Shown piece by piece: positions 5,578 through 37,083 of a DNA stretch of 64,000 nucleotides; within the stretch, counting starts at the first letter, position 1, and each line of letters opens with the position of its first letter. The notes beneath the pieces were generated by a model that worked only from the letters and a program-made list of their open reading frames with translations, made no database searches and was not told the DNA's origin. Location: assembly GCF_025345565.1 (NCBI RefSeq), contig NZ_CP054475.1:1394448-1458447 (forward strand), in the 5' to 3' direction. This DNA comes from Thalassolituus hydrocarboniclasticus (GTDB lineage Bacteria > Pseudomonadota > Gammaproteobacteria > Pseudomonadales > Oceanobacteraceae). Made by a program: the position numbers and the translations under genes.

Positions 5578-5592
5578 TACCTCAGATACAGA

Positions 5593-21958: not shown

Positions 21959-21987
21959 CAGTCATAACCCCGTCATATTTTCTTCCT
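21959..21987 (+). promoter_or_regulatory. Pho-box-like tandem repeat upstream of the TonB receptor
   Basis: CAGTCAT-AACC-CCGTCAT-ATTT-TCTTCCT matches the PhoB binding pattern of 7-bp CTGTCAT-like units spaced by 4 bp. Two units are good and the third is weak. It lies about 92 bp before the receptor start and 17 bp before a GntR-type palindrome, the same arrangement as at the other two phosphonate promoters. Confidence 0.55.
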
Positions 21988-22003
21988 AATCTGCACTGGC
22001 TAA

Positions 22004-22017
22004 CTGGATTAGACCAG
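22004..22017 (+). promoter_or_regulatory. GntR/HutC-type operator upstream of the TonB receptor
   Basis: CTGGATTAGACCAG is an imperfect palindrome of the TGGTCTAGACCA type bound by HutC-subfamily GntR regulators. It stands downstream of the Pho box, where a repressor would block initiation or promoter clearance. The local candidate regulator is the PhnR-like protein at 32771-33499. Confidence 0.55.
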
Positions 22018-22078
22018 ATTCGGATGCCGCCGGCACAAGGGGCGTGATTGCGGCTTACTGGAAACTATGGGGATTAGG

Positions 22079-24874
22079 ATGAAGACGTTTAAAACTGCAA
22101 AACTGCCACTGCTGGCGACACTGTTACTGGGCAGCCAGCTGGCACTGGCCGATGCCAGCCTGATGGGTTCGGTGATTGATCAAAGCTCAATCTTACCCGG
22201 TGCAACGGTGACCGTTGTGGAAACCGGTGCCCGTGTTCAGAGCGATGAGCGCGGTCAGTTTATTCTCAAAGGCCTGCAGGCCGGCACTTACAATCTGAAA
22301 ATTACCTACGTCGGTTATGAACCGTTGCAGACAACGGTTACTGTAATGGCTGATGAGCGTAAAGATCTGGGCGCACTGAAAGTGGTATTTACCGGTGCAG
22401 GCATCGAAGAAGTGGTCGCCGTTGGCCATATTTTCCAGGGCGAAATGAAAGCGCTGAACACGCAGAAAAATTCCAACCGTATTCTCAATGCTATTTCGGC
22501 TGACGGTATCGGTAAATTACCGGACCGCAACGCCGCCGAAGCGGTACAGCGTATTCCTGGCGTATCTATCGAGCGCGATCAGGGCGAAGGCCGCTTTGTT
22601 GCCGTGCGTGGTTTACCGGCACAGTGGAGTTCTGCCTCGCTGAATGGTGACCGCATTCCGACTGCCGAAGAAGAAACCACCTCGCGTGCGACAGCATTCG
22701 ATTTTTTCCCGACCGAAATGATCGAAAGCGTGGAAGTCAGCAAAGCGGTCACGCCGGATATGGAAGGCGATGCCATTGGCGGTAATGTGAATTTTATTAC
22801 CCGCCGCGCACCGCAGGAAACCACACTGGATGTCACCGTTGGTACCAACTACAACGATAAAGCGGAAGAGAGTGGTTATAACCTGAATATTCTGGCCGGT
22901 GACCGCAGTAACGATGGTAAGTGGGGTTATATCGTTAATGCCAGCCAGTATGTGCGTAACTGGGCGACCGATAACTTCGAACCACGCCGCAGTGGCGAAG
23001 GGATTAAACGTCTTGAATTGCGCGATTATACCGGTGAGCGCGATACCCGTGGTTTTAACGGTGCCGTGGAATATAAATTCGATAATGGCGATACCGTCTA
23101 TGCCCGTACCCTGTACGGCACCCTGATCGACGATGAAACCCATTACAAACACCGCTACCGTTTTGATAAAGACCGGATCGAGCTGCAGCATATTCACAAT
23201 ATTCTGACCACCGAACTCAGCGGGCATCAGCTGGGTGGCGAGCACTGGGTCGGAGAGGGTGGTTTACTGGAATGGAAAGCCTCAACCTACGATAACCACT
23301 TCTATTACGGTGATGTGCCGAACAGCAAAGACAAGAGCTATTTTGTTGCCCGTTTTGATCAGAAAAACGTAGGCTTTGTCGGGCTGGACAACCGTAGCGG
23401 TAAAAACCTGTCGTACAACATTATTGACGGTGGTAACAGCCCGGCCAGTGAACCATCCACGCATTTACCGGATGGCTTCAGCATGGACCCGACACAGATG
23501 GCGCTGTCCTCCATCGAGCTTTATAAGGTCGATGTGCGGGAAAAAGATAAAGTCGTGGCCCAGCTCGATTTTACCCAGGATATGAATTACGACCTGCAAT
23601 TAAAATTCGGTACCAAATACCGTGAAAAAGAACGGGTTGCACGTTTTTCCGATGAGTTTTATCAGTGGAAAGACAGTGCGACAACGCCGCTTTTGAGCGA
23701 CTTTGACTTAAGTGATCAGCCGGGCCGTAACGATTATCTGGAAGAAATTAACGCCGGTTACGCCGATGATTTCAGTCAGGTGGCGGATATGTCGGATCTG
23801 GAAAATTTCTGGAATAACAACCGCGATCAGTTCGAGCTGATTGATGACGAATCCTATACCGTAGCCAACGGTGGCGCGCTGGGCCGTAACTTTGATGTAA
23901 ACGAAACCCAGATGGCCGGTTACGGGATGGCGACTTATCAGCTGAACGATGATGTCAGCCTGGTCGGTGGCGTGCGCATTGAACGCACCGAGACCGAAGT
24001 ATCCGGTTACAGTGCCGAAGACAATGCCGGCACGCTGGTGATTGTGCCGGTTAAAAAGACCAAGTCTTACACCTCGGTACTGCCGTCTGTACATATGACC
24101 TACGCCCTGACCGACGACAGCAACCTGCGTGCTGCCTTCAGCCGTACCTTTGCCCGTCCGGACTTTGGTTCGCTGGCGCCGGGTCAGGCCTATTCTGAAG
24201 CCGATGGTGAACTGGTGGTGGGTAATCCGGGACTGAACCCGACCTATTCCAATAATCTGGATGTGTTATTCGAGCGTTATTACGACAATGTCGGTGTGAT
24301 TTCCGGCGGCCTGTTCTATAAGCAGATCAGTGATCCGATTTTCAGCAAGCGTTCTGAAGTAACCTTTAAAGGTGAAACCGTTGACCGTGTGGATTCGGTG
24401 AACGGTGATAATGCCTGGCTGGCCGGTGCCGAGTTTGCTTTCAGCCGTCGCCTCGATTTTATAGCCGATGCGCTGGAAAATGTGGGCGTACAGGCCAACT
24501 ACACCCGTATGCGTTCGGTGATGGAATTAACCAATGGCCGCAAAGCCGATATTCCGCGTCAGGCCGACTCGCTGTATAACGCCGCGTTATTCTACGATGA
24601 CAGCACCTTTGCTGTGCGCATCGCGGTTAACCATAAAGGCGCTTATATTCAGGAACACGGTGACAGCAGTGACGAAGACAGCTACTACGGTGATTACACC
24701 AGTGTTGACCTGAGTGCGTCTTATCAGGCAACCAGCGATCTGATGGTGTATGCCGATGTGAATAACATCACCAACGAACCGATGAAGTACTACCTCGGCA
24801 GCGAAAGCCGCCCACTGCAGGTGGAATACTACGGTTACCGCGCCAATCTGGGTGTGAAATACAGCTTCTTCTGA
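22079..24874 (+). CDS. TonB-dependent outer-membrane receptor
   Basis: 931 residues from ATG 22079 (GGGGATTAGG upstream; a start four codons earlier is less well placed). Signal peptide (LLLGSQLALA), then a carboxypeptidase-regulatory-like domain (about 30-100; GATVTVVETGARVQSDERG), then the plug (LPDRNAAEAVQRIPGVSIE, FVAVRGL, GGNVNFITRR) and a 22-strand barrel ending in VKYSFF. This 'CarboxypepD_reg-like plus plug' type takes up large or complex nutrients with ExbBD-TonB energy. Upstream are a Pho-box-like repeat and a GntR operator shared with the phosphonate genes, so a phosphonate-containing ligand is inferred. No local TonB/ExbBD genes. Confidence 0.93.
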   Translation: MKTFKTAKLPLLATLLLGSQLALADASLMGSVIDQSSILPGATVTVVETGARVQSDERGQFILKGLQAGTYNLKITYVGYEPLQTTVTVMADERKDLGALKVVFTGAGIEEVVAVGHIFQGEMKALNTQKNSNRILNAISADGIGKLPDRNAAEAVQRIPGVSIERDQGEGRFVAVRGLPAQWSSASLNGDRIPTAEEETTSRATAFDFFPTEMIESVEVSKAVTPDMEGDAIGGNVNFITRRAPQETTLDVTVGTNYNDKAEESGYNLNILAGDRSNDGKWGYIVNASQYVRNWATDNFEPRRSGEGIKRLELRDYTGERDTRGFNGAVEYKFDNGDTVYARTLYGTLIDDETHYKHRYRFDKDRIELQHIHNILTTELSGHQLGGEHWVGEGGLLEWKASTYDNHFYYGDVPNSKDKSYFVARFDQKNVGFVGLDNRSGKNLSYNIIDGGNSPASEPSTHLPDGFSMDPTQMALSSIELYKVDVREKDKVVAQLDFTQDMNYDLQLKFGTKYREKERVARFSDEFYQWKDSATTPLLSDFDLSDQPGRNDYLEEINAGYADDFSQVADMSDLENFWNNNRDQFELIDDESYTVANGGALGRNFDVNETQMAGYGMATYQLNDDVSLVGGVRIERTETEVSGYSAEDNAGTLVIVPVKKTKSYTSVLPSVHMTYALTDDSNLRAAFSRTFARPDFGSLAPGQAYSEADGELVVGNPGLNPTYSNNLDVLFERYYDNVGVISGGLFYKQISDPIFSKRSEVTFKGETVDRVDSVNGDNAWLAGAEFAFSRRLDFIADALENVGVQANYTRMRSVMELTNGRKADIPRQADSLYNAALFYDDSTFAVRIAVNHKGAYIQEHGDSSDEDSYYGDYTSVDLSASYQATSDLMVYADVNNITNEPMKYYLGSESRPLQVEYYGYRANLGVKYSFF

Positions 24875-24896
24875 TGTGCAGGTGACTTTTTAATCA

Positions 24897-24930
24897 GCCT
24901 CACGGGACAAACCCGTGAGGCTTTTTTTTT
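24897..24930 (+). terminator. rho-independent terminator after the TonB receptor
   Basis: Perfect 10-bp stem GCCTCACGGG/CCCGTGAGGC, loop ACAAA, followed by T9. It should limit read-through into the large lipoprotein gene. Confidence 0.93.
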
Positions 24931-25058
24931 GCATATGAGACTGATATCACAAATCTATACGAAAAAGACCTGATTTATCCATATTTGTTTTTGAGTGCTT
25001 TAACAGCGTCGGTGCAGTGATTAGCATGCGTGATCTGATTAAATGCATGAGAGATATT

Positions 25059-28000
25059 ATGAGACAGCTATCGGCTTTTATACTTTTTGGGATGTTAACC
25101 GCCTGTGGGGGTGGTGGATCAGGTGTAAAAGTGGATGCTGAACCGGGAAAACCCACCCATCCGGAAACAGAAGTACCGGCCGTTACCCGCTTGCAGGTCG
25201 TTGAGAGCCGCGCTGACAGTATTTTGTTGCGCTGGGGACATCCTGCCGGTGTTGCACAGTTTGAGGTTTACCGTGATGGCAATCTGTTAGCCGTCATTAA
25301 CGGCAATCTGACCTCGTATCAGGATAACAATCTGATTGCCGGGCAATCGTATCAATATCAGGTTGTTGCACTCAACGCATCCGGACAACGCTCCCAGCCT
25401 GTTTCTGTCAGCGCGACAGCGTTTAACAATCAGGCTCCTGTTATTGCAGCCGTACCGGAATTCCTGACGCTGACCAGCAGCCAAAGCACTGGCCAGTCAC
25501 TGCATAGCTTCTCTGCCACCGACGCGGACGGACACAAGCTGAGCTGGAGCATTGCCCAGCCACTGAATGCGCCTTTTTCAATATCAGCCGATGGAGTACT
25601 TACTCTTAAACAGAGTGCAGCCAATCTGGGTGGCAAGGTCTATTCGCTGGTCATCGATGTCAGTGACGGTTTCAGTGTTACCAGCACCTCTGTCGGTGTC
25701 GGTTTTATTGATATGGGAAATTCTGCGGGGCAGCGCGGATTGCTGCGTCAGGTATATACCGGTCATACCTTTGATGGCACTGTAGATTCGCTGCTGGCTT
25801 TTAATCAGTATCCGAACAGCCCAAGCTCAAGCAGTGTTGAGCCGCAGTTTAAATCACCATCCGGTGTAGGTAATAACTATGGGCAGCGCATGTCGGGGTT
25901 CCTGTTGCCGCCGGTGACTGGTGAATATACTTTCTGGGTTGCAGCGGACGATGCTTCTCAGTTGTTTTTAAGTACGGATTTCAGTGCAGACAACAAACAG
26001 AAAATAGCTGAAGTTACCAGTTGGGTTGGAGAAGATAACTGGGGAGCCAGGCCAGAACAAAAATCACAATCTGTAACGCTGCAAGGCGGTAAGCCGTATT
26101 TTATCGAAGCGTTAATGGTAGAGCAGTCAGGTGGTGATCACCTGTCGGTAGCCTGGACAATTCCCGGCGGAGAGCGTCAGCTTATCAGTGGTCAGTACCT
26201 CAGTCAGCCGCTTGATCGCCAGCCCCCTGAAGCCATAACCGACTTATCTCTGGTCAGAACAGACGAAGCCAGCGTGATTCTTGAATGGAGTAAGCCTGCG
26301 GATAATAACGCTGTTGCCGGCTATGAAGTCTGGAAAAGCGGTACATTACTGTCGACACTTAATGCTGCCGATTTATCAGAAACCAATATCGAAATTAATA
26401 ATCTTGATGGTGGTCAGCGCTACGACTTTTATATTGTGGCATTCGATGCTGCCGGTAACCGTTCGGTCGCGGGTAATATTGCCTCGGTGATGATCAGTGA
26501 TTACACCCCGCCGGCTGCTCCCGGTAATTTAGCAGTAAGTGATGTTACGACCTATTCAGCAAACATCCGCTGGTCTGAACCGGAAAACGGCCTGCTGTAC
26601 CGTATTTTTATTGACGATCAGTTAATTACTACCAGTGCGGCGGCAGAGTACACACTCCGCAACCTGAAGCCGGGTCAGAATTATACTGTTCAGGTATTCA
26701 GTGTCGATGCCGCCGGCAATCAGTCAGCCCGAAGTGCTGCCAAAACAATTACCACCGTTGCTATCAATACTGCCGAACCGTATTTCACGGCAGAACATTT
26801 TTCTGCGCTGGTGTCACGGGATGCGACCGCCGGACAGGGTATTTTCCAGGCTCGCGGTTATATTGACGGCAATGCCCCGCTGAATTATCAGATTACGGCT
26901 GGTAATGACGCCGGGTTATTTTCGTTATCGGCAAGTGGCGAACTGACTCTGGCCGCCAGCGCTCAGAATGCAGCTTTCAGTCATACCTTAACCATCAGTG
27001 CCAGTAATGGCAGCAGCTCAGCCAGTATGCAGCTGACGGTGATGGTGCTGGAGTCATCCCGCTTGGCGCAGCAGGGGGTTAATCAGCAGATATGGACCAA
27101 TGTTTCCGGAGGTCAGGTTGCTGATATTCCGTTAAGTGCTATGCCGGCTGAGCAAAACCGTCTGCAGAACTTATCCAGCCCATCGGGCATGGGTGACAAC
27201 TATGGTCAGCGTGTGCGGGGATTCTTAAAAGTACCGGTAACGGGCAGCTACAGTTTCTGGATTGCGTCCGATGACAGCAGTGAGCTGCGCCTGTCCAGTG
27301 ATATCGATCCGGCCAAGGCCGAAGTGGTTGCACGGGTAACTGGTTACACCAATCAGGACAGCTGGATTAACAATAATCAGCTGAAAACCAATATTGAGCT
27401 GTTAGCCGGACAGCTGTATTACATCGAAGCCTTGCATAAAGAAGGTGGCGGTGGTGACCATATGTCGGTTGCCTGGCAGGGCGCAGGGGGCGCTGCGAAA
27501 ACGCAATTAACCGGCGATTATCTGATGCCATACAGTGCGCTGTACCCATCTGCGCCGACGGTGAATAAACTGGTGCAGTCCGGCTTTGATAAAAATGGTG
27601 AACAGTTAACACTGAGCCTTAATATTCCTGACGATGCTGATGGTCTGCAGGTGTTTATTTATTACGGCACCACCGATGCCGGTGATCAGATTTCCGGATG
27701 GCAGAAAATGTTTTCTCCGGGCGCATTAGCGGCCGGTAATCAGCAGATTTTTCTGCCGGGTATCGTTCCGGGTGAGAACTATTTTATCCGTGTGGAAGTA
27801 CGTGGCCCGGCCGGCAGCAGCTGGAGTTCTGTGGTGCCTGTATCCACCCAGATTATTCCCGCAGGTAAACAGGCCGGTGAAGCCTTACCACAAAGCATCG
27901 ACCTGAGTGTCGAGGTAGACGGTAATACCAAGCAACTGAGTTTTTATAAGCACAGTGTGCGCTCGCCGAATTATCAGTTATTAACCTTCGATAACCGTCG

Positions 28001-29855
28001 CCAGCAGCAATATCAGGCGCTGGTGCCTATGCCGGAACCGCGCACCTATCGTGGCCGGGTGACGAATGACCCGTATCAGGTGGTTACCGGGGTAATTGAT
28101 GCGATGGGCCGTATGCATATTTCCGCCTGGCGCGGCGACGGACGGGCCTGGGGTAAAGTTGTTGATGTGTCTGATCTGATTGATGAGCAGGCGCTGGGTA
28201 ACAGTGAAACCCAGACCGAAGAACTGCAGATTCAGGTGAGTGTTCCGGCCGCGGAAAATAACCGTTATTACGTGCCGCAGCCAGGTGCTGATTTCCATAA
28301 CAATCTGGTCCGCGTATCGTTTAAACACGAATACAACCAGTTTATGAATCAGGCCGGTGGCAGTGTGATTAACTCCATTGCGCAAATGGAAAACCATATC
28401 AACGAAACAGATTATGTCTGGGCACAGAAAACCGGTTTACGCTGGGATGTGGGTCGCGCATTAATCGAAGTGCATGGCGATTCAACCGCTGGCAATAACC
28501 AGCCAAGACCGGCGGGAACCGATGCCACGAATTTCAGCATTGATTTTCAGGATCCGTTTAATGGTGGTCATTGCTGGGGCGGTGGTGACTGGGTCGGGTG
28601 TGTTGCCAACTACACTATGAACTGGGGCTATACCCATGAAATCGGTCATAACATGGGCTTAGGCCATGGTGAACAGACCGACAATAATAACCAGCTGCAG
28701 GAACCCGGCACTCATATGTCGAACATGCAGGCGCGTAAAACCACGCGGCGTTTGCAGGCTGGCAGTAAATTCAAACCGGCCAGAACATTGACCGATGCGA
28801 TGCCACCAGCAGCCTTTAAAGATTATCTGAGTGTTTATCAGGATGAGTCTGCAAGCGTTGCTGTATTGGCTAATGACTATGATGCCAATGGTGAGGAACT
28901 GAGCATTGCCGCCTTTGATGCAACCACGGCACAGGGTGGACAGGTAACACAGCAGGGCAATGTTTTACGCTACACACCGCCTGCAGGTTATATCGGTGTG
29001 GATCAGTTTACCTACACCGTAACCGATGGTTCTTTGCGTACTGTCGGGCCGGTGCAGATTCAGGTTTTACGTAATGGCTTAACCGGCGACTGGAATATGG
29101 AGGCTATAACCTCTGACCATAACGTTACTGACGCCAGCGGCGATAATAATCACCTGACCGCGCCGGAATTATCCGCCTTAAGCAGCGGTCTGGCGCTGGC
29201 GGATGTGCGTGAAGCCAGCAACAGCAATCATGCGATGACGATGGCCCTGATGGCTTCGGCAGCTAAAGCAGATGATGCGCTGGGGCATAGTTTATTGCCG
29301 CATAAACTCGATCCGGGTCATAAAAGTTTTACCGCCTCAATGTGGGTCAAATATAACGAGATCAGTGGGGCGCGCTTATTGATGGGTAAATCCTCCAATG
29401 GCCCGAATAATATGGAATACGGTGGTTGGGAAATCCGCAGTAACGGCACTGCCGTGGAAATGCAGGTTAATTTCCGTGATCGTCTGATGGTGAATAATCA
29501 GGCGGTTATCCGTGCAGACAATGCGCTGAGCAATGGCGTCTGGCAGCATCTGGTGATGGTTATTGACCGTGACGGTGGTAGTGAAAGCGGTGAACTGCGC
29601 GGTTATCTGAACGGTGTGGCGATTGCAGAACCGGTTCCCTTACCTCAGGGAGCCGGGCCCATTATGGCGGCGATGAACTCCTCCGGTTATGGTGGTGGTT
29701 CGCCGTTCCGGGTTGGTGGGCATGCGCACCTGAACTGCAGTGGTGAAGGGAATGCAAAGGTATGCGAGCTGGCGGCAGGACAGGCATTTGATGATGTGAA
29801 AATTTATCATAAGGCCCTGAGCGAAGCCGAAATCCAGGCACTCTCTGTGCGTTAA
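25059..29855 (+). CDS. giant surface lipoprotein metalloprotease with PA14, FN3, cadherin-like and LamG domains
   Basis: 1598 residues from ATG 25059, chosen because it gives a short lipoprotein signal (FILFGMLTACGGGG, lipobox LTAC); in-frame ATGs at 25026 and 25047 are possible. Order by sequence pattern: FN3 (about 40-118), cadherin-like (127-220), PA14 (225-385; FLLPPVTGEYTFWVAADD), two FN3 (389-565), cadherin-like (573-668), second PA14 (671-825; VPVTGSYSFWIASDDSS), FN3-like (833-925), a peptidase region with metzincin zinc motif HEIGHNMGLGH at 1193-1203, an Ig/cadherin tandem-repeat domain (1255-1335) and a LamG-like C-terminus. PA14 and LamG modules commonly bind glycans. It follows the TonB receptor on the same strand. 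The substrate is unknown; cleavage of a glycosylated or phosphonylated protein is inference. Confidence 0.85.
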   Translation: MRQLSAFILFGMLTACGGGGSGVKVDAEPGKPTHPETEVPAVTRLQVVESRADSILLRWGHPAGVAQFEVYRDGNLLAVINGNLTSYQDNNLIAGQSYQYQVVALNASGQRSQPVSVSATAFNNQAPVIAAVPEFLTLTSSQSTGQSLHSFSATDADGHKLSWSIAQPLNAPFSISADGVLTLKQSAANLGGKVYSLVIDVSDGFSVTSTSVGVGFIDMGNSAGQRGLLRQVYTGHTFDGTVDSLLAFNQYPNSPSSSSVEPQFKSPSGVGNNYGQRMSGFLLPPVTGEYTFWVAADDASQLFLSTDFSADNKQKIAEVTSWVGEDNWGARPEQKSQSVTLQGGKPYFIEALMVEQSGGDHLSVAWTIPGGERQLISGQYLSQPLDRQPPEAITDLSLVRTDEASVILEWSKPADNNAVAGYEVWKSGTLLSTLNAADLSETNIEINNLDGGQRYDFYIVAFDAAGNRSVAGNIASVMISDYTPPAAPGNLAVSDVTTYSANIRWSEPENGLLYRIFIDDQLITTSAAAEYTLRNLKPGQNYTVQVFSVDAAGNQSARSAAKTITTVAINTAEPYFTAEHFSALVSRDATAGQGIFQARGYIDGNAPLNYQITAGNDAGLFSLSASGELTLAASAQNAAFSHTLTISASNGSSSASMQLTVMVLESSRLAQQGVNQQIWTNVSGGQVADIPLSAMPAEQNRLQNLSSPSGMGDNYGQRVRGFLKVPVTGSYSFWIASDDSSELRLSSDIDPAKAEVVARVTGYTNQDSWINNNQLKTNIELLAGQLYYIEALHKEGGGGDHMSVAWQGAGGAAKTQLTGDYLMPYSALYPSAPTVNKLVQSGFDKNGEQLTLSLNIPDDADGLQVFIYYGTTDAGDQISGWQKMFSPGALAAGNQQIFLPGIVPGENYFIRVEVRGPAGSSWSSVVPVSTQIIPAGKQAGEALPQSIDLSVEVDGNTKQLSFYKHSVRSPNYQLLTFDNRRQQQYQALVPMPEPRTYRGRVTNDPYQVVTGVIDAMGRMHISAWRGDGRAWGKVVDVSDLIDEQALGNSETQTEELQIQVSVPAAENNRYYVPQPGADFHNNLVRVSFKHEYNQFMNQAGGSVINSIAQMENHINETDYVWAQKTGLRWDVGRALIEVHGDSTAGNNQPRPAGTDATNFSIDFQDPFNGGHCWGGGDWVGCVANYTMNWGYTHEIGHNMGLGHGEQTDNNNQLQEPGTHMSNMQARKTTRRLQAGSKFKPARTLTDAMPPAAFKDYLSVYQDESASVAVLANDYDANGEELSIAAFDATTAQGGQVTQQGNVLRYTPPAGYIGVDQFTYTVTDGSLRTVGPVQIQVLRNGLTGDWNMEAITSDHNVTDASGDNNHLTAPELSALSSGLALADVREASNSNHAMTMALMASAAKADDALGHSLLPHKLDPGHKSFTASMWVKYNEISGARLLMGKSSNGPNNMEYGGWEIRSNGTAVEMQVNFRDRLMVNNQAVIRADNALSNGVWQHLVMVIDRDGGSESGELRGYLNGVAIAEPVPLPQGAGPIMAAMNSSGYGGGSPFRVGGHAHLNCSGEGNAKVCELAAGQAFDDVKIYHKALSEAEIQALSVR

Positions 29856-29884
29856 CCATCACGGTTTAAAAGCGGCAACAACAC

Positions 29885-29922
29885 AGCCCGGTGTGACTTC
29901 AGTCACTCCGGGCTTTGTTTTT
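29885..29922 (+). terminator. rho-independent terminator after the lipoprotein gene
   Basis: A 13-bp stem with one mismatch (AGCCCGGTGTGAC pairing with GTCACTCCGGGCT), loop TTCA, followed by TTGT5. Confidence 0.85.
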
Positions 29923-30003
29923 CTGAGGCTGTTGTTTCTGAATCTGCGGTTTTGTCTGGCGTATCAGAAACTCTCCCTTTTCCAGGTTCAGCTCTGAACC
30001 TGC

Positions 30004-30031
30004 CTGTCATCGTTTTGTCATCCGCTGTCTT
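30004..30031 (+). promoter_or_regulatory. Pho box upstream of the FAD oxidoreductase operon
   Basis: CTGTCAT-CGTT-TTGTCAT-CCG-CTGTCTT: two near-consensus PhoB half-sites at 11-bp spacing plus a third at 10 bp. An AATACT -10-like hexamer follows at 30035-30040, and a GntR operator at 30046-30059. Confidence 0.65.
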
Positions 30032-30045
30032 TTAAATACTACCAT

Positions 30046-30059
30046 CTGGACTAGACCAA
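30046..30059 (+). promoter_or_regulatory. GntR/HutC-type operator upstream of the FAD oxidoreductase operon
   Basis: CTGGACTAGACCAA contains TGGACTAGACCA, one mismatch from the TGGTCTAGACCA palindrome. It starts six bases after the -10-like hexamer and ends 14 bases before the start codon, over the expected transcription start. Confidence 0.6.
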
Positions 30060-30072
30060 AAGAAGTATCAGG

Positions 30073-31308
30073 ATGGCAGTAAAACAGCAGGTGGTTATTA
30101 TTGGCGGCGGTATTCTTGGCCTCGCCATCGCCCATTATCTGCAGAGCAGCGGTGAGGCACAGGTAACGCTGTTTGAACGCGGCGAATTAGGCGCAGGCAC
30201 TACCAGTCAGGCGGCAGCCTTATTAACCCGCGCGCGCAGCAGCGACAGTGCGGCATTAATGGTGCACGAAACTCACAGCACCCTGCGTATGCTGGAGCAG
30301 CGTTTTAATCTGCCCTTTGCGCAACGCAGCGGTTGTTTGCACATCGCCGTTAACGATAACGAACGTCAGCAACAACAACGGTATTTTCAGCAGGCGCAGC
30401 AGTTGGATGTTGGCACACAATGGCTGGCCAGCAGCGATATTCAGCGCCTGCTGCCCTGGCTGACGCTTCCTGCAGACAGCAGTGCGTTGTATTACCCCGA
30501 TGACGGCCACGCCGACCCTTATACCCTGGCACAGCTGTATGCCCGTTCGGCCCGCGCCGCCGGTGCGCAGATTATTTCCCATTGTGCGGTTAACCGGCTG
30601 GAGTTGCAGAGCAATAAACTGACCGGCGTACACATCGCCAGCGGTGAATTTATCCGTGCCGACACTGTGGTGCTGGCGGCCGGCCCCTGGAGTGCGGCGC
30701 TGGCCTGTGACTACGATATCGCACTGGCGATGGCACCGGTGCGCAGCCATTACTGGATAACCAACAACCAGCCGCAGGTTGATGCCAAGCAGCCGATGGC
30801 GATTATTCCTTCGGCCAAAGCCTATTTCCGCAGCGAACAATCGGCGCTGTTATTCGGTGTGCGCGACAGCCAGTGTTGTGTCGCCGACCCGCGTGCATTA
30901 CCGCACGATATTCACAGTTTTCATTTTGCCGAAGACGCCAATGGCTGGCTGGCACTGGAAGAGCACTGGCATAGCCTGCTGACTCTGTGCCCGCTGCTGG
31001 AGCAGGCGCAACTGGCGCATTACTTAAGCGGTGTGTCGTCTTACACGCCGGATGGCAAACCCCTGCTCGGGCGTCTGGAGCAGTACAGCAATGCCTTTGT
31101 CGCCACCGGCTGCTCCGGTGCCGGTATTGCCTTCAGTGCCGGTATTGGCCGCCTGCTCAGTGAGCAGATTCTTGAACAACCGACCTTTGTTAACCCGGAA
31201 GAATTCTCGCCGGCACGCTTTGCCACGATGCAACCCAAGGCTGATCCGATGAGCCCTGAATTCCGCCTGCACTGTGCCCGCGCGCGCAGCGGCAAGAGTA
31301 CCGGCTGA
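30073..31308 (+). CDS. FAD-dependent amino-acid-oxidase-like oxidoreductase of the phosphonate operon
   Basis: 411 residues of the DAO/glycine-oxidase-like family. The N-terminal dinucleotide-binding motif VVIIGGGILGLAIAHYLQ and a C-terminal FAD-contact region (VATGCSGAGIAFSAGIGRLL) are present. Such enzymes oxidise secondary or primary amines to imines with FAD. Relatives recur in aminophosphonate gene clusters, where roles on 2-aminoethylphosphonate or N-methylated forms have been described. That is the likeliest substrate class here, by context with phnW and phnX. First gene of a three-gene operon with the DUF5690 transporter and PhnR. No signal peptide; cytoplasmic. Confidence 0.82.
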   Translation: MAVKQQVVIIGGGILGLAIAHYLQSSGEAQVTLFERGELGAGTTSQAAALLTRARSSDSAALMVHETHSTLRMLEQRFNLPFAQRSGCLHIAVNDNERQQQQRYFQQAQQLDVGTQWLASSDIQRLLPWLTLPADSSALYYPDDGHADPYTLAQLYARSARAAGAQIISHCAVNRLELQSNKLTGVHIASGEFIRADTVVLAAGPWSAALACDYDIALAMAPVRSHYWITNNQPQVDAKQPMAIIPSAKAYFRSEQSALLFGVRDSQCCVADPRALPHDIHSFHFAEDANGWLALEEHWHSLLTLCPLLEQAQLAHYLSGVSSYTPDGKPLLGRLEQYSNAFVATGCSGAGIAFSAGIGRLLSEQILEQPTFVNPEEFSPARFATMQPKADPMSPEFRLHCARARSGKSTG

Positions 31309-31406
31309 ATGCAGCATTTTCATACAGCCGACATATCCCTCGGGTATTTCCTGTTTATAAGAACTGATTGCGCTGCAGGCACAGGTGCCGCAGCGGGAGT
31401 ATTTTA

Positions 31407-32768
31407 ATGTTAATTATGCCGTTTCAGCGTTTTCATCAGCAGGTTCAGCAACGTTTACAGCAGGCGCCTGCTGTCTGGTTTGTGGTGTTCGCCATCAGTG
31501 CCGCTTTTATGACGTACTTTTCGATGTACGCCTTCCGCAAGCCTTTCTCGGTGGCGATGTACGATGGCCAGACCCTGTTTGGCATGGATTACAAAGTCAT
31601 CCTGATTTTTGCGCAGGTGCTGGGTTATCTGTTGTCGAAGTTTATCGGTATCCGTGTGGTGTCGGGCATGATGCACGATCGCCGCGCGCTGGCCATTGTC
31701 TTACTGGTCGCCAGTGCGCAACTGGCATTGTTTTTATTTGCGGTATTACCGGCGCCATTAAAACCGCTGGCGATGTTTTTTAATGGTCTGCCACTGGGCA
31801 TGATCTGGGGGCTGGTATTCAGCTATCTGGAAGGGCGTAAAACCTCGGAATTACTCGGGGCAGGGTTAAGCGCCACCTTTATTGTCGCCTCTGGCATGGT
31901 ACGCAGTGTGGGCAAAGCGTTAATCGTTTATGCCGATGTGCCGGAATTCTGGATGCCGTTTTTAACCGGCCTGATTTTTATGCCGCTGCTGCTGATTTCG
32001 GTCTATGCACTGTCGATGATTCCGGAACCGGATGCCACTGACGAAGAACTGCGACTGAAACGCCAGCCGATGACCGCCGCCGACCGCTGGCAGTTATTCG
32101 GCCAGTACTGGTTTGGCCTGAGTCTGCTGATTCTGGCGTTTTTACTGTTTACCGGCCTGCGCGATTTTCGCGATAACTTTTCTGCCGAAATCTGGCAGGC
32201 GCTGGGCTATGGCAATGAACCCGCGATTTTTACCTACGCCGGGGTGCGCATTGCCGGTATGGTGCTGGTGGCGCTGGCGTTATTAATGTTTATCCGCGAT
32301 AACTTCCGCGCCTTTACCGCCAATCATATTGCCATTGTGCTGGGCTGCTTTATTTTGGGTTACAGCACCTGGCTGCATCAGCAACACTGGCTCGACAGTA
32401 AAATCTGGATGGTCGCCTTAGGTACGGGGTTGTATCTGGCCTATATTCCGTTTAACTGCTTTTTGTTTGACCGTTTTGTCGCGCTGGCCGGTGGCGTGGC
32501 CAATGCCGGATTTCTGATTTATCTGGCCGACAGCGCCGGTTATACCGGCAGTGTCGGGTTGCTGTTGGTTAAGCATTTTTATGCAGCCGACATCAGCTGG
32601 CTGAATTTCTTTGTCAGTGCCGTTTACAGCACCGCAATCGTTGGTGGTTTGCTGGTGACGATGTCATGGTTGTATTTCCGCTGGCGTTTTATCCGCAATG
32701 GGCAGCAGTTTCAGGAAGAGCCTAAGGAACAGCTGCTGGCTTCTGTTGCATCGACACGGCTAAAATAG
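31407..32768 (+). CDS. DUF5690-family MFS-like membrane transporter
   Basis: 453 residues from ATG 31407, seven bases after GGGAG. About 12 membrane helices. The early motif AFMTYFSMYAFRKPFSVA is characteristic of the DUF5690 family, an MFS-related group without an assigned substrate as far as I know. It lies between the FAD oxidoreductase and the phosphonate regulator, under a Pho box and a GntR operator. No ABC (phnSTUV/phnCDE) phosphonate importer is visible in the window. It is therefore the best local candidate for inner-membrane uptake of the aminophosphonate or an organophosphonate ester. That role is inferred from position only. Confidence 0.8.
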   Translation: MLIMPFQRFHQQVQQRLQQAPAVWFVVFAISAAFMTYFSMYAFRKPFSVAMYDGQTLFGMDYKVILIFAQVLGYLLSKFIGIRVVSGMMHDRRALAIVLLVASAQLALFLFAVLPAPLKPLAMFFNGLPLGMIWGLVFSYLEGRKTSELLGAGLSATFIVASGMVRSVGKALIVYADVPEFWMPFLTGLIFMPLLLISVYALSMIPEPDATDEELRLKRQPMTAADRWQLFGQYWFGLSLLILAFLLFTGLRDFRDNFSAEIWQALGYGNEPAIFTYAGVRIAGMVLVALALLMFIRDNFRAFTANHIAIVLGCFILGYSTWLHQQHWLDSKIWMVALGTGLYLAYIPFNCFLFDRFVALAGGVANAGFLIYLADSAGYTGSVGLLLVKHFYAADISWLNFFVSAVYSTAIVGGLLVTMSWLYFRWRFIRNGQQFQEEPKEQLLASVASTRLK

Positions 32769-32770
32769 CC

Positions 32771-33499
32771 ATGCATACCGATTCTGGACTCAAAAAAATG
32801 CTGCCAGCCAATATCGAAATACGCGACTACCTGGCCGGACTGATCAAACAGTCACGGCTGAAACAGAACGAACGTCTGCCATCCGAACGCGAACTGGTGG
32901 AGCAGTTTAAAAGCACACGTATTACCGTGCGCGATGCGTTGTCAAAGCTGGAATCGGAAGGGCTGATTTACCGCTCCAACCGCCGCGGCTGGTTTGTCTC
33001 GCCACCACGGCTGGAATATGACCCGTCTTCGCGGGTGAATTTCTACCTGCTGGCGGAGCAGCAACAACGCACTCCGGCCACCGAATTAATTTCACAAAAG
33101 CGCATTAAAGGCCCACAGACAGCGCGCACGGCACTGGCCGTTGCCGCTGACGAAAAACTGATTGAACTGGTACGTCTGCGTTCCCTCGATGGCCGCCCGG
33201 TGCTGTACGAATTTATCTACCTGCCGGAAAGCCGTTTTCCGGAACTGATGAAAAAAGATCTGGAAGGCTCACTTACCACCCTGATGCAGCGCGATTACAA
33301 CGTCGAAATTACGCACGAAGATAACCGCATCTGCGTGTCAGCGGTGTACGATCAGGTGGCCGACGCGCTGTCGCATATTAACGGCGCGCCCTGTCTGGAG
33401 ATTCGCCGTATCCGTTATGAAGGGGAGCGCAAAGCGGTGGAGTTTGATATTGAGCACTGGGTTCACAGTGCGATAGAACTGCGGATTCCCAGTCACTGA
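32771..33499 (+). CDS. phnR: GntR/HutC-family regulator of phosphonate genes (PhnR-like)
   Basis: 242 residues. N-terminal winged HTH about 14-78 (LPSERELVEQFKSTRITVRDA, cut here as LPSERELVEQF and RITVRDAL), then a UTRA ligand-binding domain about 95-238. This is the HutC subfamily, which binds TGGTCTAGACCA-like palindromes and releases DNA on ligand binding. Three such palindromes stand before the TonB receptor, the FAD operon and phnW, so this protein is the natural candidate. The effector could be 2-aminoethylphosphonate or a breakdown product. Starts 2 bp after the transporter stop. Confidence 0.85.
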   Translation: MHTDSGLKKMLPANIEIRDYLAGLIKQSRLKQNERLPSERELVEQFKSTRITVRDALSKLESEGLIYRSNRRGWFVSPPRLEYDPSSRVNFYLLAEQQQRTPATELISQKRIKGPQTARTALAVAADEKLIELVRLRSLDGRPVLYEFIYLPESRFPELMKKDLEGSLTTLMQRDYNVEITHEDNRICVSAVYDQVADALSHINGAPCLEIRRIRYEGERKAVEFDIEHWVHSAIELRIPSH

Positions 33500-33527
33500 T
33501 TTTCTTTTTCAGCTGTTTTGTGGGAGG

Positions 33528-33590
33528 GGCTTGGTAGGAGCGGCTTTTAGCCGCGATACTGTTTCAGTGGCCGCTGCCGGGTTGGCTTTT
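33528..33590 (+). repeat. REP-like element, left arm of an inverted pair around the phnWX island
   Basis: Begins GGCTTGGTAGGAGCGGCTTT and contains the hairpin GCGGCTTTTAGCCGC. The reverse complement of 38821-38884 matches it over about 63 bp with few differences. REP-like elements of the GTAGGAGCGG...CCGCGA type are common intergenic repeats in gammaproteobacteria. Together the two arms bracket about 5.2 kb carrying phnW, phnZ-like and phnX. Confidence 0.75.
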
Positions 33591-33857
33591 GTAATCATAT
33601 CGAAGTCTTTGCGGGTGCTCCGCCCCCTGCGCCCCCATGTAAGGAGAAGTATCTCCTTCCGATCCTCTCTTGCGGCTGTCCGGTGCTGTTCAGTCAACTG
33701 CGTGGCCAATCCGGCCCGCACAGCAATTCGCCCGGAGCCTTTTACCGTTTGATAATTGAAATGAATGGGCTCCGGGCTGTACTGTGCTTTCCACCGGATT
33801 GTCTGCCTGGTTGACTGGCACCGCACAAATGCCGCGTTTATTCAGACGCAACGCAGT
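33591..33857. other. non-coding stretch after phnR
   Basis: No protein-like frame. It contains one perfect hairpin, AAGGAGA-AGTA-TCTCCTT at 33641-33658, without a T run. It could be a weak 3' end for the phnR operon. Short open frames here are translations of repeat DNA. Confidence 0.4.
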
Positions 33858-34273
33858 TTTTCAAAACAAACAAAGCAGGAATTGAAAAGCGGTTTCTCGT
33901 TATGGTTTTATGCGCCTGCAGGACGCCGGTTTGAATCATTCTGCGCCGGTACGTCCCGGCATGGATGCCGGGCGAGCGAATAGGACCATGGACAATTTTG
34001 TCGGGAACAAAATTGAGCAGCCGCAGGCTGACCCGCAGGGCGAAAGGCAGGATGCCTGAAGTCTCGCCCATTATTCGCGTTACCGCGACCGCAGGATTAT
34101 TCAGAACGGATTAAGTCCTGCACAGCGCGAAGCGGGCCGATTGTGTGCTCCTGCACAATCTGCATTTCCGCCATCCATGGCGGTCAGGAGTAAGCGCCCG
34201 ACCGGCGTGAGGGGTAAGACCCCTCAAAGAGGTCATAGGGCCGGGCGGGAGCCCAAAAGTCATCCGCGCAGCG
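33858..34273 (+). repeat. multi-hairpin dispersed repeat, copy A
   Basis: The core from 33898 to about 34273 is nearly identical to 38463-38840 in the same orientation; a weaker match extends left to about 33858. It holds several perfect stems: CCCGGCAT/ATGCCGGG (33955-33972), CAATTTTGT/ACAAAATTG (33993-34015), GATTGTG/CACAATC (34139-34160), CCGCCAT/ATGGCGG (34168-34183) and GAGGGG/CCCCTC (34209-34225). No transposase or terminal repeat is visible. It could be a non-autonomous mobile element or a structured RNA-type repeat. Confidence 0.8.
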
Positions 34274-34405
34274 CTAATTCATAAATATGGGACTATTGGA
34301 GTATTCCTGCGCATTAGCGTAAATCTAATTACAAAAGCCATCCCGCGCAGCGGCCACAAAACTCAATAACGCCCTCAGGAACCCCCAGCCCAACACTCTT
34401 CATTA
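34274..34405. other. spacer between repeat A and the phnW promoter
   Basis: Non-coding. It includes a short copy of the repeat-end word (AAAGCC...CGCGCAGCGGCCACA near 34334-34358) that also occurs at the end of repeat B. Confidence 0.5.
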
Positions 34406-34434
34406 CTGTCACAAAAACTTCATTAAACTGCCGT
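34406..34434 (+). promoter_or_regulatory. Pho box upstream of phnW
   Basis: CTGTCAC-AAAA-ACTTCAT-TAAA-CTGCCGT: three 7-bp units at the 11-bp period expected for PhoB, with AT-rich spacers. A TATAGT -10-like hexamer lies at 34457-34462, followed by the GntR palindrome. Confidence 0.7.
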
Positions 34435-34469
34435 TGCCGCTCACTCCGTTAGCTTTTATAGTTTGCGCA

Positions 34470-34487
34470 TTCTGGTCTAGACCAGAA
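34470..34487 (+). promoter_or_regulatory. perfect GntR/HutC operator upstream of phnW
   Basis: TTCTGGTCTAGACCAGAA is an 18-bp perfect palindrome containing the HutC-type TGGTCTAGACCA core. It starts eight bases after the -10-like hexamer, so it covers the expected transcription start. It is the best of the three local sites. Confidence 0.75.
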
Positions 34488-34530: not shown

Positions 34531-35646
34531 ATGAATAACCCTTATTTATTACTCACTCCCGGCCCCCTGAGTACCACGGCCAGTGTAAAGCAGACCATGC
34601 TGCGTGACTGGTGTACCTGGGATGACGATTACAACCTGGGGGTGGTGCAGCCTATCCGTGAACAGTTGGTAGAGCTGGCGCTCTGTGGTGAAAAAGAGTG
34701 CGCTGCAGAGGAATACAGTGCGGTGCTGTTGCAGGGCAGTGGCAGCTTTGCGGTAGAGAGTGTCATCAGCAGTGCCTTTTCGGCCGACGATAAATTACTG
34801 ATTTTAGCTAATGGCGCTTACGGTCAGCGTATTGCCGATATGGCGCGTGTACACCGTATTAATTACGGGCTGTTAACCGCCGCCGAACATGAGTGGGTGA
34901 GTCTGAAAGAACTGAATCAGGCTTTGCACGATGATCCGGCCATTACCCATGTAGCGCTGGTTCATTGTGAAACCACCTCCGGTATTCTGAATCCGCTGGC
35001 GGCCTATGCCGAAGTGATTAAAGCCGCCGGCAAAACCCTGATTGTCGATGCCATGAGCTCGTTTGGTGGTATCGAAATTCCGCTGGCCGCACTGGGTATC
35101 GATTTTCTGATCAGCTCGGCCAATAAATGCATTCAGGGCGTGCCCGGTATGGGCTTTGTGATAGCAAAACGCGATGCGCTGGCCAAATGTGCCGGTCGTG
35201 CGCGCACATTAAGTCTGGATTTATTTGACCAGTGGCAGTGCATGGAGCAGGGCCATGGTAAATGGCGTTTTACCTCGCCAACCCATGTGGTACGCGCTTT
35301 TCAGCAGGCGCTGGCGGAATTGGCAGAAGAGGGTGGCATCAGCGCGCGGGCACAGCGTTATGCCGACAATCACCGTACCCTGGTCGATGGTATGCAGGCG
35401 CTGGGTTTCGAATGTGTGGTCAGCCGCGATAAACAATCGCCTTTTATTTCGACCTTTAAATATCCCGATAATCCGGCGTTCGATTTTAACCAGCTGTATC
35501 AGCGTTTAAAGCAGGAAGGCTTTGTGATTTATCCGGGCAAGGTCACGGCAACGCCGTGTTTCCGCATTGGCCATATCGGTGATGTTTTTCCGCAGGACAT
35601 GCAGCGTTTGCTGCAGGCGCTGGAAAAACACCGCTTCTGGCTCTGA
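34531..35646 (+). CDS. phnW: 2-aminoethylphosphonate--pyruvate transaminase
   Basis: 371 residues, the normal length for PhnW. It is a PLP aminotransferase that converts 2-aminoethylphosphonate plus pyruvate to phosphonoacetaldehyde plus alanine. Hallmarks: YLLLTPGPLSTTASVKQTML with the following RDWCTWDDDYN, the LLQGSGSFAVES phosphate-binding region, DAMSSFGG, and the PLP-lysine segment SSANKCIQGVPGMGFV (Lys about 195). First gene of phnW-phnZ-like-phnX, with a Pho box and GntR operator upstream. The ribosome site (GACGGA) is weak. Confidence 0.96.
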   Translation: MNNPYLLLTPGPLSTTASVKQTMLRDWCTWDDDYNLGVVQPIREQLVELALCGEKECAAEEYSAVLLQGSGSFAVESVISSAFSADDKLLILANGAYGQRIADMARVHRINYGLLTAAEHEWVSLKELNQALHDDPAITHVALVHCETTSGILNPLAAYAEVIKAAGKTLIVDAMSSFGGIEIPLAALGIDFLISSANKCIQGVPGMGFVIAKRDALAKCAGRARTLSLDLFDQWQCMEQGHGKWRFTSPTHVVRAFQQALAELAEEGGISARAQRYADNHRTLVDGMQALGFECVVSRDKQSPFISTFKYPDNPAFDFNQLYQRLKQEGFVIYPGKVTATPCFRIGHIGDVFPQDMQRLLQALEKHRFWL

Positions 35647-35669: not shown

Positions 35670-36263
35670 ATGCGCTTACGCACGCTGGCGCGCAAAGCCG
35701 TTGATCAGGTCTGGCAACCCTTTGCCGATTACGGCCATATGCCATTGGGGGAAGATATTTCCCAGACCCGGCATGCTCTGCAATGTGCCTGGTTTGCCGA
35801 ACAGGATAATGCGCCAGCGCATCTGGTTATTGCCGCTCTGCTGCATGATGTTGGCCATTTAATTACCTGGCAGGAGCAGGGGCTGCATCCGGAAGCCGGT
35901 GGCGATAACGGCTACCACGAAAAAGTCGGCGCGGCTTTTTTAAGTGAGTATTTTGCCGATGACGTGACCAAACCCATTCGTCTGCATGTCGCGGCCAAGC
36001 GTTATTTATATTCCACCGATGCCGCATACCGCGACTCGCTGTCGGCAGCATCGCAGCAGAGCCTGGAACTGCAGGGCGGCTGGATGGATGAAAGCACCTG
36101 CCGTGCCTTTGAATCTTCGCCCTGGTTTGTCGACGCTTTACGGCTGCGTAAATACGACGAGCAGGGAAAACAACCGGCCTTACAGGTGCCGGGCATTGAC
36201 CATTATTACGAACTATTAATTCAGCACACCCGTGTGGTGCAGGAGCGCAATACCCATGTTTAA
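35670..36263 (+). CDS. HD-domain phosphonate-operon protein (PhnZ-like mixed-valent di-iron oxygenase family)
   Basis: 197 residues with a GGAGG site. HD-type metal ligands: QTRHALQ, LLHDVGHLI, and RLHVAAKRYL with a downstream conserved Asp candidate. The LGEDISQTRHALQ, SAASQQSLELQGG and VPGIDHYYELL stretches match the HD protein associated with phosphonate operons, related to PhnZ. PhnZ cleaves (R)-1-hydroxy-2-aminoethylphosphonate to glycine and phosphate with O2, after PhnY hydroxylation. No phnY-like oxygenase is seen in this window. It may act on hydroxylated aminophosphonate taken up from outside, or have another role beside PhnW/PhnX. Its last 8 bases overlap phnX. Confidence 0.85.
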   Translation: MRLRTLARKAVDQVWQPFADYGHMPLGEDISQTRHALQCAWFAEQDNAPAHLVIAALLHDVGHLITWQEQGLHPEAGGDNGYHEKVGAAFLSEYFADDVTKPIRLHVAAKRYLYSTDAAYRDSLSAASQQSLELQGGWMDESTCRAFESSPWFVDALRLRKYDEQGKQPALQVPGIDHYYELLIQHTRVVQERNTHV

Positions 36264-37083
36264 ATCGCAACGTTTTTTTGCCGGGCCAACAGAAGCCGTT
36301 ATTCTCGACTGGGCGGGCACCACCATTGATTTTGGCTCGCTGGCACCGGTTTACGCCTTTATGGAATTATTCGCCGCCGAGGGTATTGAGGTTACGCAGG
36401 CCGAAGCGCGTGAACCCATGGGCACCGAAAAGCGCGAACACATTACCCGTATGCTGGCCAATCCGCGTATTCATGCACGCTGGCTGGAAGTGAAAGGACA
36501 GGAAGCCGACAGCACCGAAATCGACCGCCTGTACCATGCCTTTGCGCCGATTCAGACGCGTATCGTTGGCGAACGTGCGCAATTAATTCCGGGCTGGAAA
36601 GCCGCTTACGACCAGCTGCGTGAGCAGGGGTTAAAAATCGGCGGTAATACCGGCTACGGCCCCGGCATGATGGAACCGGCATTAATCGCCGCCAAAGATC
36701 AGGGTTACGAACCGGATGCCTGTGTATTCGCCACCGATGTATTGCGTGGCCGCCCATACGCCGATATGGCGCTGGCGTTAGCGCTGCAACTGAGCGTTAA
36801 CCACGTACACGCCTGCATTAAAGTGGACGATACCTTACCCGGTATTGAAGAAGGCCTGCGTGCCGGTATGTGGACCGTCGGTGTCAGCATCAGCGGCAAC
36901 GAAGTCGGCCTGAATCTTGCTGACTGGCAGGCGCTTTCCGCCAGCGAACAGGCACAGCGCCGCAGCAAAGCAACCCAGCGCTTTAACGATGCCGGAGCAC
37001 ATTACGTGATTGATTCGGTCGCGGATTTACCGGGCGTGATTGCCGATATTAATGCGCGCCTGGCGCGGGGAGAAAAGCCCTGA
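36256..37083 (+). CDS. phnX: phosphonoacetaldehyde hydrolase (phosphonatase)
   Basis: 275 residues from ATG 36256, preceded by AGGAGCG; an earlier in-frame start lies deep in the upstream gene. It is a HAD-superfamily enzyme that cleaves the C-P bond of phosphonoacetaldehyde to acetaldehyde and phosphate. The nucleophile motif ILDWAGTTIDFG, the Schiff-base lysine segment EPMGTEKREHITRML and the late acidic motif KVDDTLPGIEEGL are all present. It completes the PhnW-PhnX route; the acetaldehyde could feed the acetate/acs system upstream. A weak hairpin (CCCTGAACTGAGTTCAGGG) covers its stop, without a T run. Confidence 0.96.
   Translation: MFKSQRFFAGPTEAVILDWAGTTIDFGSLAPVYAFMELFAAEGIEVTQAEAREPMGTEKREHITRMLANPRIHARWLEVKGQEADSTEIDRLYHAFAPIQTRIVGERAQLIPGWKAAYDQLREQGLKIGGNTGYGPGMMEPALIAAKDQGYEPDACVFATDVLRGRPYADMALALALQLSVNHVHACIKVDDTLPGIEEGLRAGMWTVGVSISGNEVGLNLADWQALSASEQAQRRSKATQRFNDAGAHYVIDSVADLPGVIADINARLARGEKP

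Follow-up and report, generated by a model that had tools for sequence, protein, structure and literature searches.

A predicted substrate-gated Pho regulon for the acquisition and breakdown of organophosphonates in Thalassolituus hydrocarboniclasticus

Background

Which signals govern the phosphonate genes of Thalassolituus hydrocarboniclasticus, and by what route does their substrate reach the cytoplasm? The question is raised by a stretch of 64,000 nucleotides of this gammaproteobacterium (contig NZ_CP054475.1, positions 1,394,448 to 1,458,447 of the forward strand), hereafter the window, in which a TonB-dependent receptor gene, an operon headed by a flavin adenine dinucleotide (FAD) oxidoreductase gene, and phnW, encoding 2-aminoethylphosphonate (AEP):pyruvate transaminase, are each preceded by a candidate PhoB site and a palindrome of the kind bound by GntR-type regulators. 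An earlier reading made without database searches (the sequence-only reading) had proposed that PhoB activates these promoters under phosphate starvation and that the local GntR regulator holds them back until an aminophosphonate is present. The present analysis supports this double control as a prediction, in which activation, repression and the aminophosphonate inducer are inferred, and makes it probable that the locus belongs to a substrate-gated Pho regulon for organophosphonates, in which PhoB and a PhnR-like regulator gate one route of acquisition and breakdown.

The regulatory logic has precedents. The phosphonatase genes of Salmonella are described as being under PhoB control with phnR in the same cluster (PMC11203657, PMC10715179, PMC5351497), and a two-step logic, phosphate shortage first and substrate second, has been proposed for them (PMC11203657, PMC10715179). 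Salmonella phnRSTUVWX and the predicted regulon share phnW and phnX, a GntR regulator of the PhnR family and PhoB control, the last being a prediction here; Salmonella has the PhnSTUV transporter, whereas the predicted regulon has a DUF5690 membrane protein, a TonB receptor, an FAD oxidase, an HD-domain oxygenase and a secreted phosphodiesterase. The phnWX/aepXVW genes of Pseudomonas putida BIRD-1 are also similar, as their expression needs both nutrient limitation and substrate (PMC9311074), but there the specific regulator, AepR, is of LysR type and the transporter is AepXVW. With regard to the outer membrane, a paper on three AEP transporters (PMC8316502) contains the terms TonB, outer membrane and porin zero times. 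In a literature search with most subscription papers outside its reach, DUF5690 was named in no paper found, no title or abstract opening dealt with a phosphonate TonB receptor when phosphonate was combined with TonB or outer membrane receptor, and the combined gene set described below was not found in print.

Results

The same two-part control region precedes all three transcription units, as had been claimed, and all its elements lie on the forward strand. The Pho box of the FAD operon is strong (30004..30021, CTGTCAT-N4-TTGTCAT, one mismatch), the Pho-box-like tandem repeat of the receptor promoter is moderate (21959..21976, CAGTCAT-N4-CCGTCAT, two mismatches), and that of phnW is weak but conserved (34406..34423, CTGTCAC-N4-ACTTCAT, four mismatches). 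Each has at least two CTGTCAT-like units at 11-bp spacing, the defining feature of a Pho regulon, and the earlier description stands corrected at phnW, where the box is weak; further weak 7-mer units lie 3' of the tandem ones. The Pho boxes are followed by the operators TGGATTAGACCA (22005..22016, receptor), TGGACTAGACCA (30047..30058, FAD operon) and TGGTCTAGACCA (34473..34484, phnW), the last being the core of a perfect 18-bp palindrome at 34470..34487. These TGG-type palindromes, including the 18-bp one already noted by the sequence-only reading, can be read directly in the DNA and are situated 26-62 bp before the start codon. A GT-N4-AC core with dyad symmetry is exact in the phnW operator, and the FAD and receptor operators deviate from it in one half. 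Only when a third, weak unit is taken as the starting point does the gap of 12-36 bp given earlier between the two parts apply; the distance from where the two-unit box ends amounts to 28, 25 and 49 bp at the receptor, FAD and phnW promoters, respectively. The -10-like hexamers that the sequence-only reading placed between the two parts at the FAD and phnW promoters are an observation by eye.

The pattern TGGNNTAGACCA occurs at seven distinct places in the 4.07-Mb single-contig genome and at nine (eight forward and one reverse) in the same genome read backwards; it has no genome-wide enrichment over this control, and it is therefore the position of the sites that matters. Three of the seven places are the window promoters, a fourth belongs to the promoter of a phosphodiesterase gene, and the other three (L001, L005 and L007) were rejected as operators, each being inside a gene. 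An independent operator matrix, built from 231 words (both orientations) of distant PhnR loci only (L070-L146 except L071), gave the three palindromes the top three scores of the window (23.7, 21.4 and 18.1 bits; next best 12.5), and the best score in each of 200 block-shuffled windows had a mean of 11.3, a 95% point of 17.4 and a maximum of 24.5. Across 94 PhnR loci (1.77 Mb, four duplicates included), TGGTNTANACCA had 99 exact and 163 one-mismatch occurrences, compared to 3 and 38 in one block shuffle; in the same scan, no intergenic operator was found in various loci, some of them from Pseudomonas and Aquitalea.

When at most two mismatches are allowed, the Pho-box pattern CTGTCAT-N4-CTGTCAT matches the genome 42 times and the backward-read control 21 times. 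Among the 42 are the receptor and FAD promoters and sites 5' of the two PBP_like_2 (PstS-type) genes that exceed the family cut-off, and the phnW box falls outside the list. In 500 shuffles per promoter, scored with approximate weights, p was 0.002 for the receptor, 0.002 for the FAD operon and 0.012 for phnW. A Pho box of at least 12 bits lies 5' of the operator in 46 of 175 operator-gene pairs from the 90 non-duplicate PhnR loci outside the window (operators between divergent genes counted twice) versus 7 in reversed sequence, and many operators are therefore without a good Pho box by this score. The genome encodes, in addition to the PstS-type proteins, two PhoB-type regulators over the family cut-off. 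A Pho-box pattern also lies 5' of a gene which by eye is OlsB-like (ornithine-lipid acyltransferase; L053, genome 1376279), which is consistent with a functioning Pho regulon. A looser operator-like site near an Exo_endo_phos gene (L191), separated from a Pho box by about 170 bp, was discarded as it sits within a reading frame. Rfam at gathering thresholds had no match in the window.

The fourth operator, at genome positions 3815608-3815619 and 2.4 Mb from those of the window, extends the regulon beyond the three promoters of the sequence-only reading, which was right about these and incomplete in extent. The gene whose ATG (L194:5649) lies 40 bp 3' of this operator encodes a type I phosphodiesterase that looks secreted and contains hemopexin repeats. 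The longest frame opens at 5592 and would contain the operator; by eye, the start at 5649 follows a ribosome-binding-site-like AGGAG. An orthologue was detected in 5 of the 16 relatives searched (out of 44 genomes of the family), and the own gene and all five orthologues carry the operator with at most three mismatches from a perfect palindrome, with a clear Pho box in L202.

The sequence-only reading had staked itself on the enrichment of both sites at these promoters in related genomes; the enrichment was found, and the reading survives. The pairing of Pho box and operator recurs in three genera at a near-constant distance, also where the loci are rearranged or dispersed, with gaps of 25-28 bp at the receptor (five promoters, the own one included), 16-17 or 24-25 bp at FAD/DUF5690 (eight promoters, L035 being of another family) and 43-49 bp at phnW (six promoters). 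The receptor Pho box is clear in L023, L025 and L203 and weaker in L028. Gene order varies among the compared loci, which therefore do not represent a single copied block; dispersed genes retain the pair as well, such as the G006 receptor on another contig (gap 28), phnW located elsewhere in G013 (gap 52) and phnW of G002 (L207, gap 49). Within the bacterial family the operator is present in 28 of 30 instances (phnW 8/9, receptor 7/7, FAD/DUF5690 operon 7/8, phosphodiesterase 6/6), which are not independent, coming from three genera and G037, with the phosphodiesterase searched in 16 relatives. One of the two misses is DUF5690 of G037, in a reading frame starting about 240 bp from a contig end.

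The regulator expected to act on these palindromes is encoded within the FAD operon (32771..33499, forward strand). It has the GntR winged helix and UTRA domain of the GntR/HutC type, is closest to PhnR by curated models, and is 99% identical to PhnR of Thalassolituus alkanivorans TMPB967 (L067), a species in which these loci are likewise present; a single place in the own genome matches PhnR at E<=1e-20. PhnF of Mycobacterium smegmatis, from the NagR/DasR/PhnF group of repressors, reportedly binds a TGGTATAGACCA-like site. By HMMER alignment, R40/R50 correspond to R38/R48 of NagR and R135/R137 to its R133/R135, and all four are invariant in an alignment of 12 PhnR sequences, from which L009 (a 99% copy), L013 (two internal stops) and L022 (27%) were left out. 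In NagR, R38/R48 read two operator guanines and R133/R135 hold the effector phosphate (PMC4333415, PMC4918961); the likeness to the NagR/DasR/PhnF repressors covers domains, base- and phosphate-reading arginines and GG/CC half sites. The conserved base-reading arginines fit the TGG/CCA half sites, and the protein sequence suggests an effector carrying a phosphonate or phosphate group. In the excluded locus L013 (G035:C126:63408-64136; 71% complete genome), the PhnR match contains one TGA and one TAG.

The second part of the question, the route of uptake, leads to the TonB-dependent receptor and DUF5690. The receptor (22067..24874, forward strand) has a CarboxypepD_reg-like N-terminal domain and scores 489 bits on TIGR01782 (cut-off 310); its orthologues occur in 7 of the 44 family genomes, all of them among the 9 with phnX. 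The DUF5690 membrane protein (31368..32768, forward strand; the true start probably lies downstream of the TTG) is proposed as an organophosphorus carrier. The family is rare, being found in 2 of 369 genomes of the class and 10 of 398 of the phylum (own included), and in the bacterial family DUF5690 and PhnR are present in the identical 8 of 44 genomes. Fifty of the PhnR loci compared contain phnW, phnX or a Phn-HD gene. Components of an ATP-binding cassette (ABC) transporter, either a permease or a solute-binding protein, are encoded in 40 of them, and both DUF5690 and the receptor are absent from all 40; DUF5690 is present in nine, all without ABC components and six with the receptor, and one has the receptor only. 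The hypergeometric probabilities for this distribution are 4e-9 and 3.5e-5, values which ignore relatedness, six of the nine loci being from the window's family. To arrive at this set, 4 duplicates were removed, and of the remaining 91 loci (90 and the window) 41 were dropped because they are short or lack all three of phnW, phnX and Phn-HD; of the dropped, L025 and L075 have DUF5690 and the receptor, L033 the receptor only, six ABC components only, and the rest none of the three. Versions of the predicted DUF5690 system are also found in sphingomonads (L113 and L133, with phospholipase C) and in a metagenome-assembled genome (MAG) of Cellvibrionaceae (L075, no esterase seen).

The AlphaFold2 model of DUF5690 (mean predicted local distance difference test, pLDDT, 84.7) has the fold of the major facilitator superfamily (MFS). 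With Foldseek, the ten best matches by E-value were human G6PT/SLC37A4, with query TM-scores of 0.51-0.60, and Escherichia coli GlpT (1pw4) ranked 31st; the GlpT/UhpT/G6PT organophosphate:phosphate antiporters thus give the best E-values. The invariant residues R57, K58 and R265 are reminiscent of the substrate-binding residues R45/K46 and R269 of GlpT. Operator-like sites were also observed before phospholipase C-like genes adjoining Phn-HD, phnX and DUF5690 in L172 (11569-13752, Pseudomonadota) and in sphingomonads (L113:4000-6129 and L133:6967-9093); this neighbourhood hints at a phosphonolipid substrate.

The enzymes of the predicted route are all encoded on the forward strand. The FAD-dependent amine oxidoreductase (DAO family, PF01266; 30073..31308) may be an N-methyl-AEP oxidase. 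Its best solved relative is dimethylglycine dehydrogenase, and in Marinobacter L073 a 44% identical protein adjoins phnW-phnX, with an operator. It can be likened by family and context to the FAD-dependent phosphonate oxidoreductases PbfB/PbfC/PbfD, in that it too belongs to PF01266 and is encoded among genes of AEP breakdown (PMC10590968). PhnW (34531..35646) scores 548 bits on TIGR02326 (cut-off 401) and the phosphonoacetaldehyde hydrolase PhnX (36232..37083) 331 bits on TIGR01422 (cut-off 220); the Phn-HD or PhnZ-like HD-domain oxygenase between them (35670..36263) remains narrowly under the TIGR03276 cut-off (203.7 against 214.6 bits). The C-terminal 49 residues of PhnX have a second short counterpart at L023:18542-18688 (98% identity, 2.3 kb from phnX) and at L207:5727-5873 (94% identity, 1.3 kb from phnX). 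In two Marinobacter MAGs (L073:6562-8991 and L078:7395-9824), a PhnR operator lies 5' of a gene for an 809-aa purple-acid-phosphatase-like enzyme adjoining phnR, FAD, phnW and phnX (Pfam on L073 only).

Between the receptor gene and the FAD operon lies a gene for a large protein with PA14, fn3, Big_9 and LamG domains (25017..29855) and, by eye, a metzincin-like HExxHxxGxxH motif. A 66% identical copy adjoins the receptor in L025, and L023 has no match. It was set aside and is probably not a member of the regulon: by eye, a hairpin resembling a terminator lies near 24900, after the receptor gene, and there is no operator 5' of the large gene. The interval of about 0.9 kb between phnR and phnW (33500-34380) has no recognised gene and, by eye, short GC-rich repeat-like stretches.

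Discussion

From these results the following mechanism can be proposed. At low phosphate, PhoB would bind the 11-bp-spaced repeats and activate the promoters. A dimer of the PhnR-like regulator on the TGG-N6-CCA palindrome, 3' of the Pho box and near the presumed transcription start, would block transcription, and a small phosphonate, either an aminophosphonate or a catabolite, would lift the block by binding the phosphate-reading arginines. Since phnR is the third gene of a controlled operon, the circuit would be autoregulated. The secreted phosphodiesterase, encoded elsewhere in the genome, may cleave phosphonate-bearing esters, the products of which would be taken across the outer membrane by the TonB receptor and across the inner membrane by the DUF5690 carrier, in replacement of the usual ABC transporter. 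The FAD oxidase, PhnW, Phn-HD and PhnX would then release the phosphate. The more specific version of this uptake, in which the phosphodiesterase frees phosphonates from lipids or glycans, the receptor imports them and DUF5690 is a phosphonate:phosphate antiporter, is a tentative proposal that we rate somewhat below an even chance.

Several observations weigh against this account. With regard to the sites, the receptor operator by itself barely exceeds the 95% point of the shuffled windows, and 2 of the 19 spaced Pho boxes are not significant alone (L026 receptor, p 0.11; L028 phnW, p 0.09). At the phosphodiesterase promoter, the Pho box of L201 is not credible and those of the own genome, L198, L199 and L200 are weak, and the G023 receptor (L205) keeps its operator with a Pho box that is not credible. 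The other operator miss, phnW of G023 (L206), has at most a half-site. Operators are kept in G002 and G023, genomes that are 86% and 94% complete and in which PhnR was not found. The regulator scores 235.2 bits on TIGR03337, the best of the NCBIfam models listed for it, below the cut-off of 296.75, and is therefore named PhnR-like; unlike NagR, it has an arginine (Arg71) at the place of the wing residue Gly69, and it goes with a different gene set and presumably a different effector. As for transport, the DUF5690 sequence had no match to solved structures up to E 10, and the TM-scores to GlpT/UhpT/G6PT are no higher than those to other MFS carriers, several from outside the organophosphate family, such as SPNS2 and sialin (0.65), matching the model at an equal or higher value. 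The receptor model is of low confidence (mean pLDDT 62.9), uninformative on the substrate and unfit for a fold search. Lastly, DUF5690 elsewhere adjoins phosphate-ester genes, or no phosphorus gene among those checked. As a separate observation, a divergent LysR-type-looking gene was seen by eye upstream of G023 phnW.

The varied neighbourhood of DUF5690 is also the ground of the strongest competitor of this account, namely that the receptor and DUF5690 serve general scavenging of phosphate esters and only the enzymes are specific for phosphonates, an explanation that is rather unlikely. PhoX, GDPD, metallophosphoesterase and phospholipase C genes are found next to DUF5690 in other genomes: in Pfam scans of chosen neighbours at the nine other loci of the phylum, three had phosphate-ester genes (L175 PhoX, L176 GDPD and metallophosphoesterase, L177 phospholipase C), and L174 had no phosphorus gene among the neighbours checked. 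The varied neighbours mean that the cargo need not be phosphonate. Of the same nine, four have PhnX-, PhnX-like or Phn-HD genes (L163, L172, L173 and L179), at least five have a nearby TonB receptor (L163 at 55% identity, L176, L177, L178 and L179), and exact operators are present only in L172. Within the family, however, DUF5690 occurs only with PhnR and the receptor orthologue only with phnX, and both carry the operator, which argues against this competitor.

Rather improbable is a PhnR that acts as an activator or dual regulator instead of a repressor. Many Vibrio loci have two operators between phnW and a divergent transporter gene, and in P. putida BIRD-1 the LysR-type AepR is needed together with PhoBR for full phnWX expression (PMC9311074). 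Against it, the operators of the window occupy the usual blocking position, 3' of the Pho box and shortly before the start codon, and repression is the role described for its relatives NagR/DasR and PhnF (PMC4918961, PMC10574752).

The DasR consensus is nearly TGGTCTAGACCA. Least probable of all is that another GntR/HutC protein of the NagR/DasR or HutC type reads the palindromes and links these genes to aminosugar or histidine use instead of phosphonates: sites of the HutC subfamily share the core GTMTAKAC (PMC4494728), so that the motif alone cannot name the regulator, and G002 and G023 retain operators without a detected PhnR, but in Vibrio, Marinobacter, Neptuniibacter and other bacteria the same operator marks those PhnR loci that contain phosphonate genes, the own genome has its single PhnR match, and its four operator-bearing promoters serve two phosphonate operons, one phosphodiesterase and one receptor.

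Conclusions

Gating of a Pho regulon by PhoB and a PhnR-like repressor thus remains the preferred reading. As this logic is already known, what is new is the predicted route through phosphodiesterase, TonB receptor, DUF5690 and cytoplasmic phosphonatase; a joint regulon with the first three, in the place that an ABC transporter takes at other PhnR loci, goes beyond routine annotation. The operator matrix is usable as a marker for finding such systems in genomes. If the reading is correct, phosphonate uptake would gain a step at the outer membrane and a new family of transporters through the co-regulated TonB receptor and DUF5690, and this would suggest that these bacteria feed on larger phosphonate-bearing molecules, beyond free AEP.

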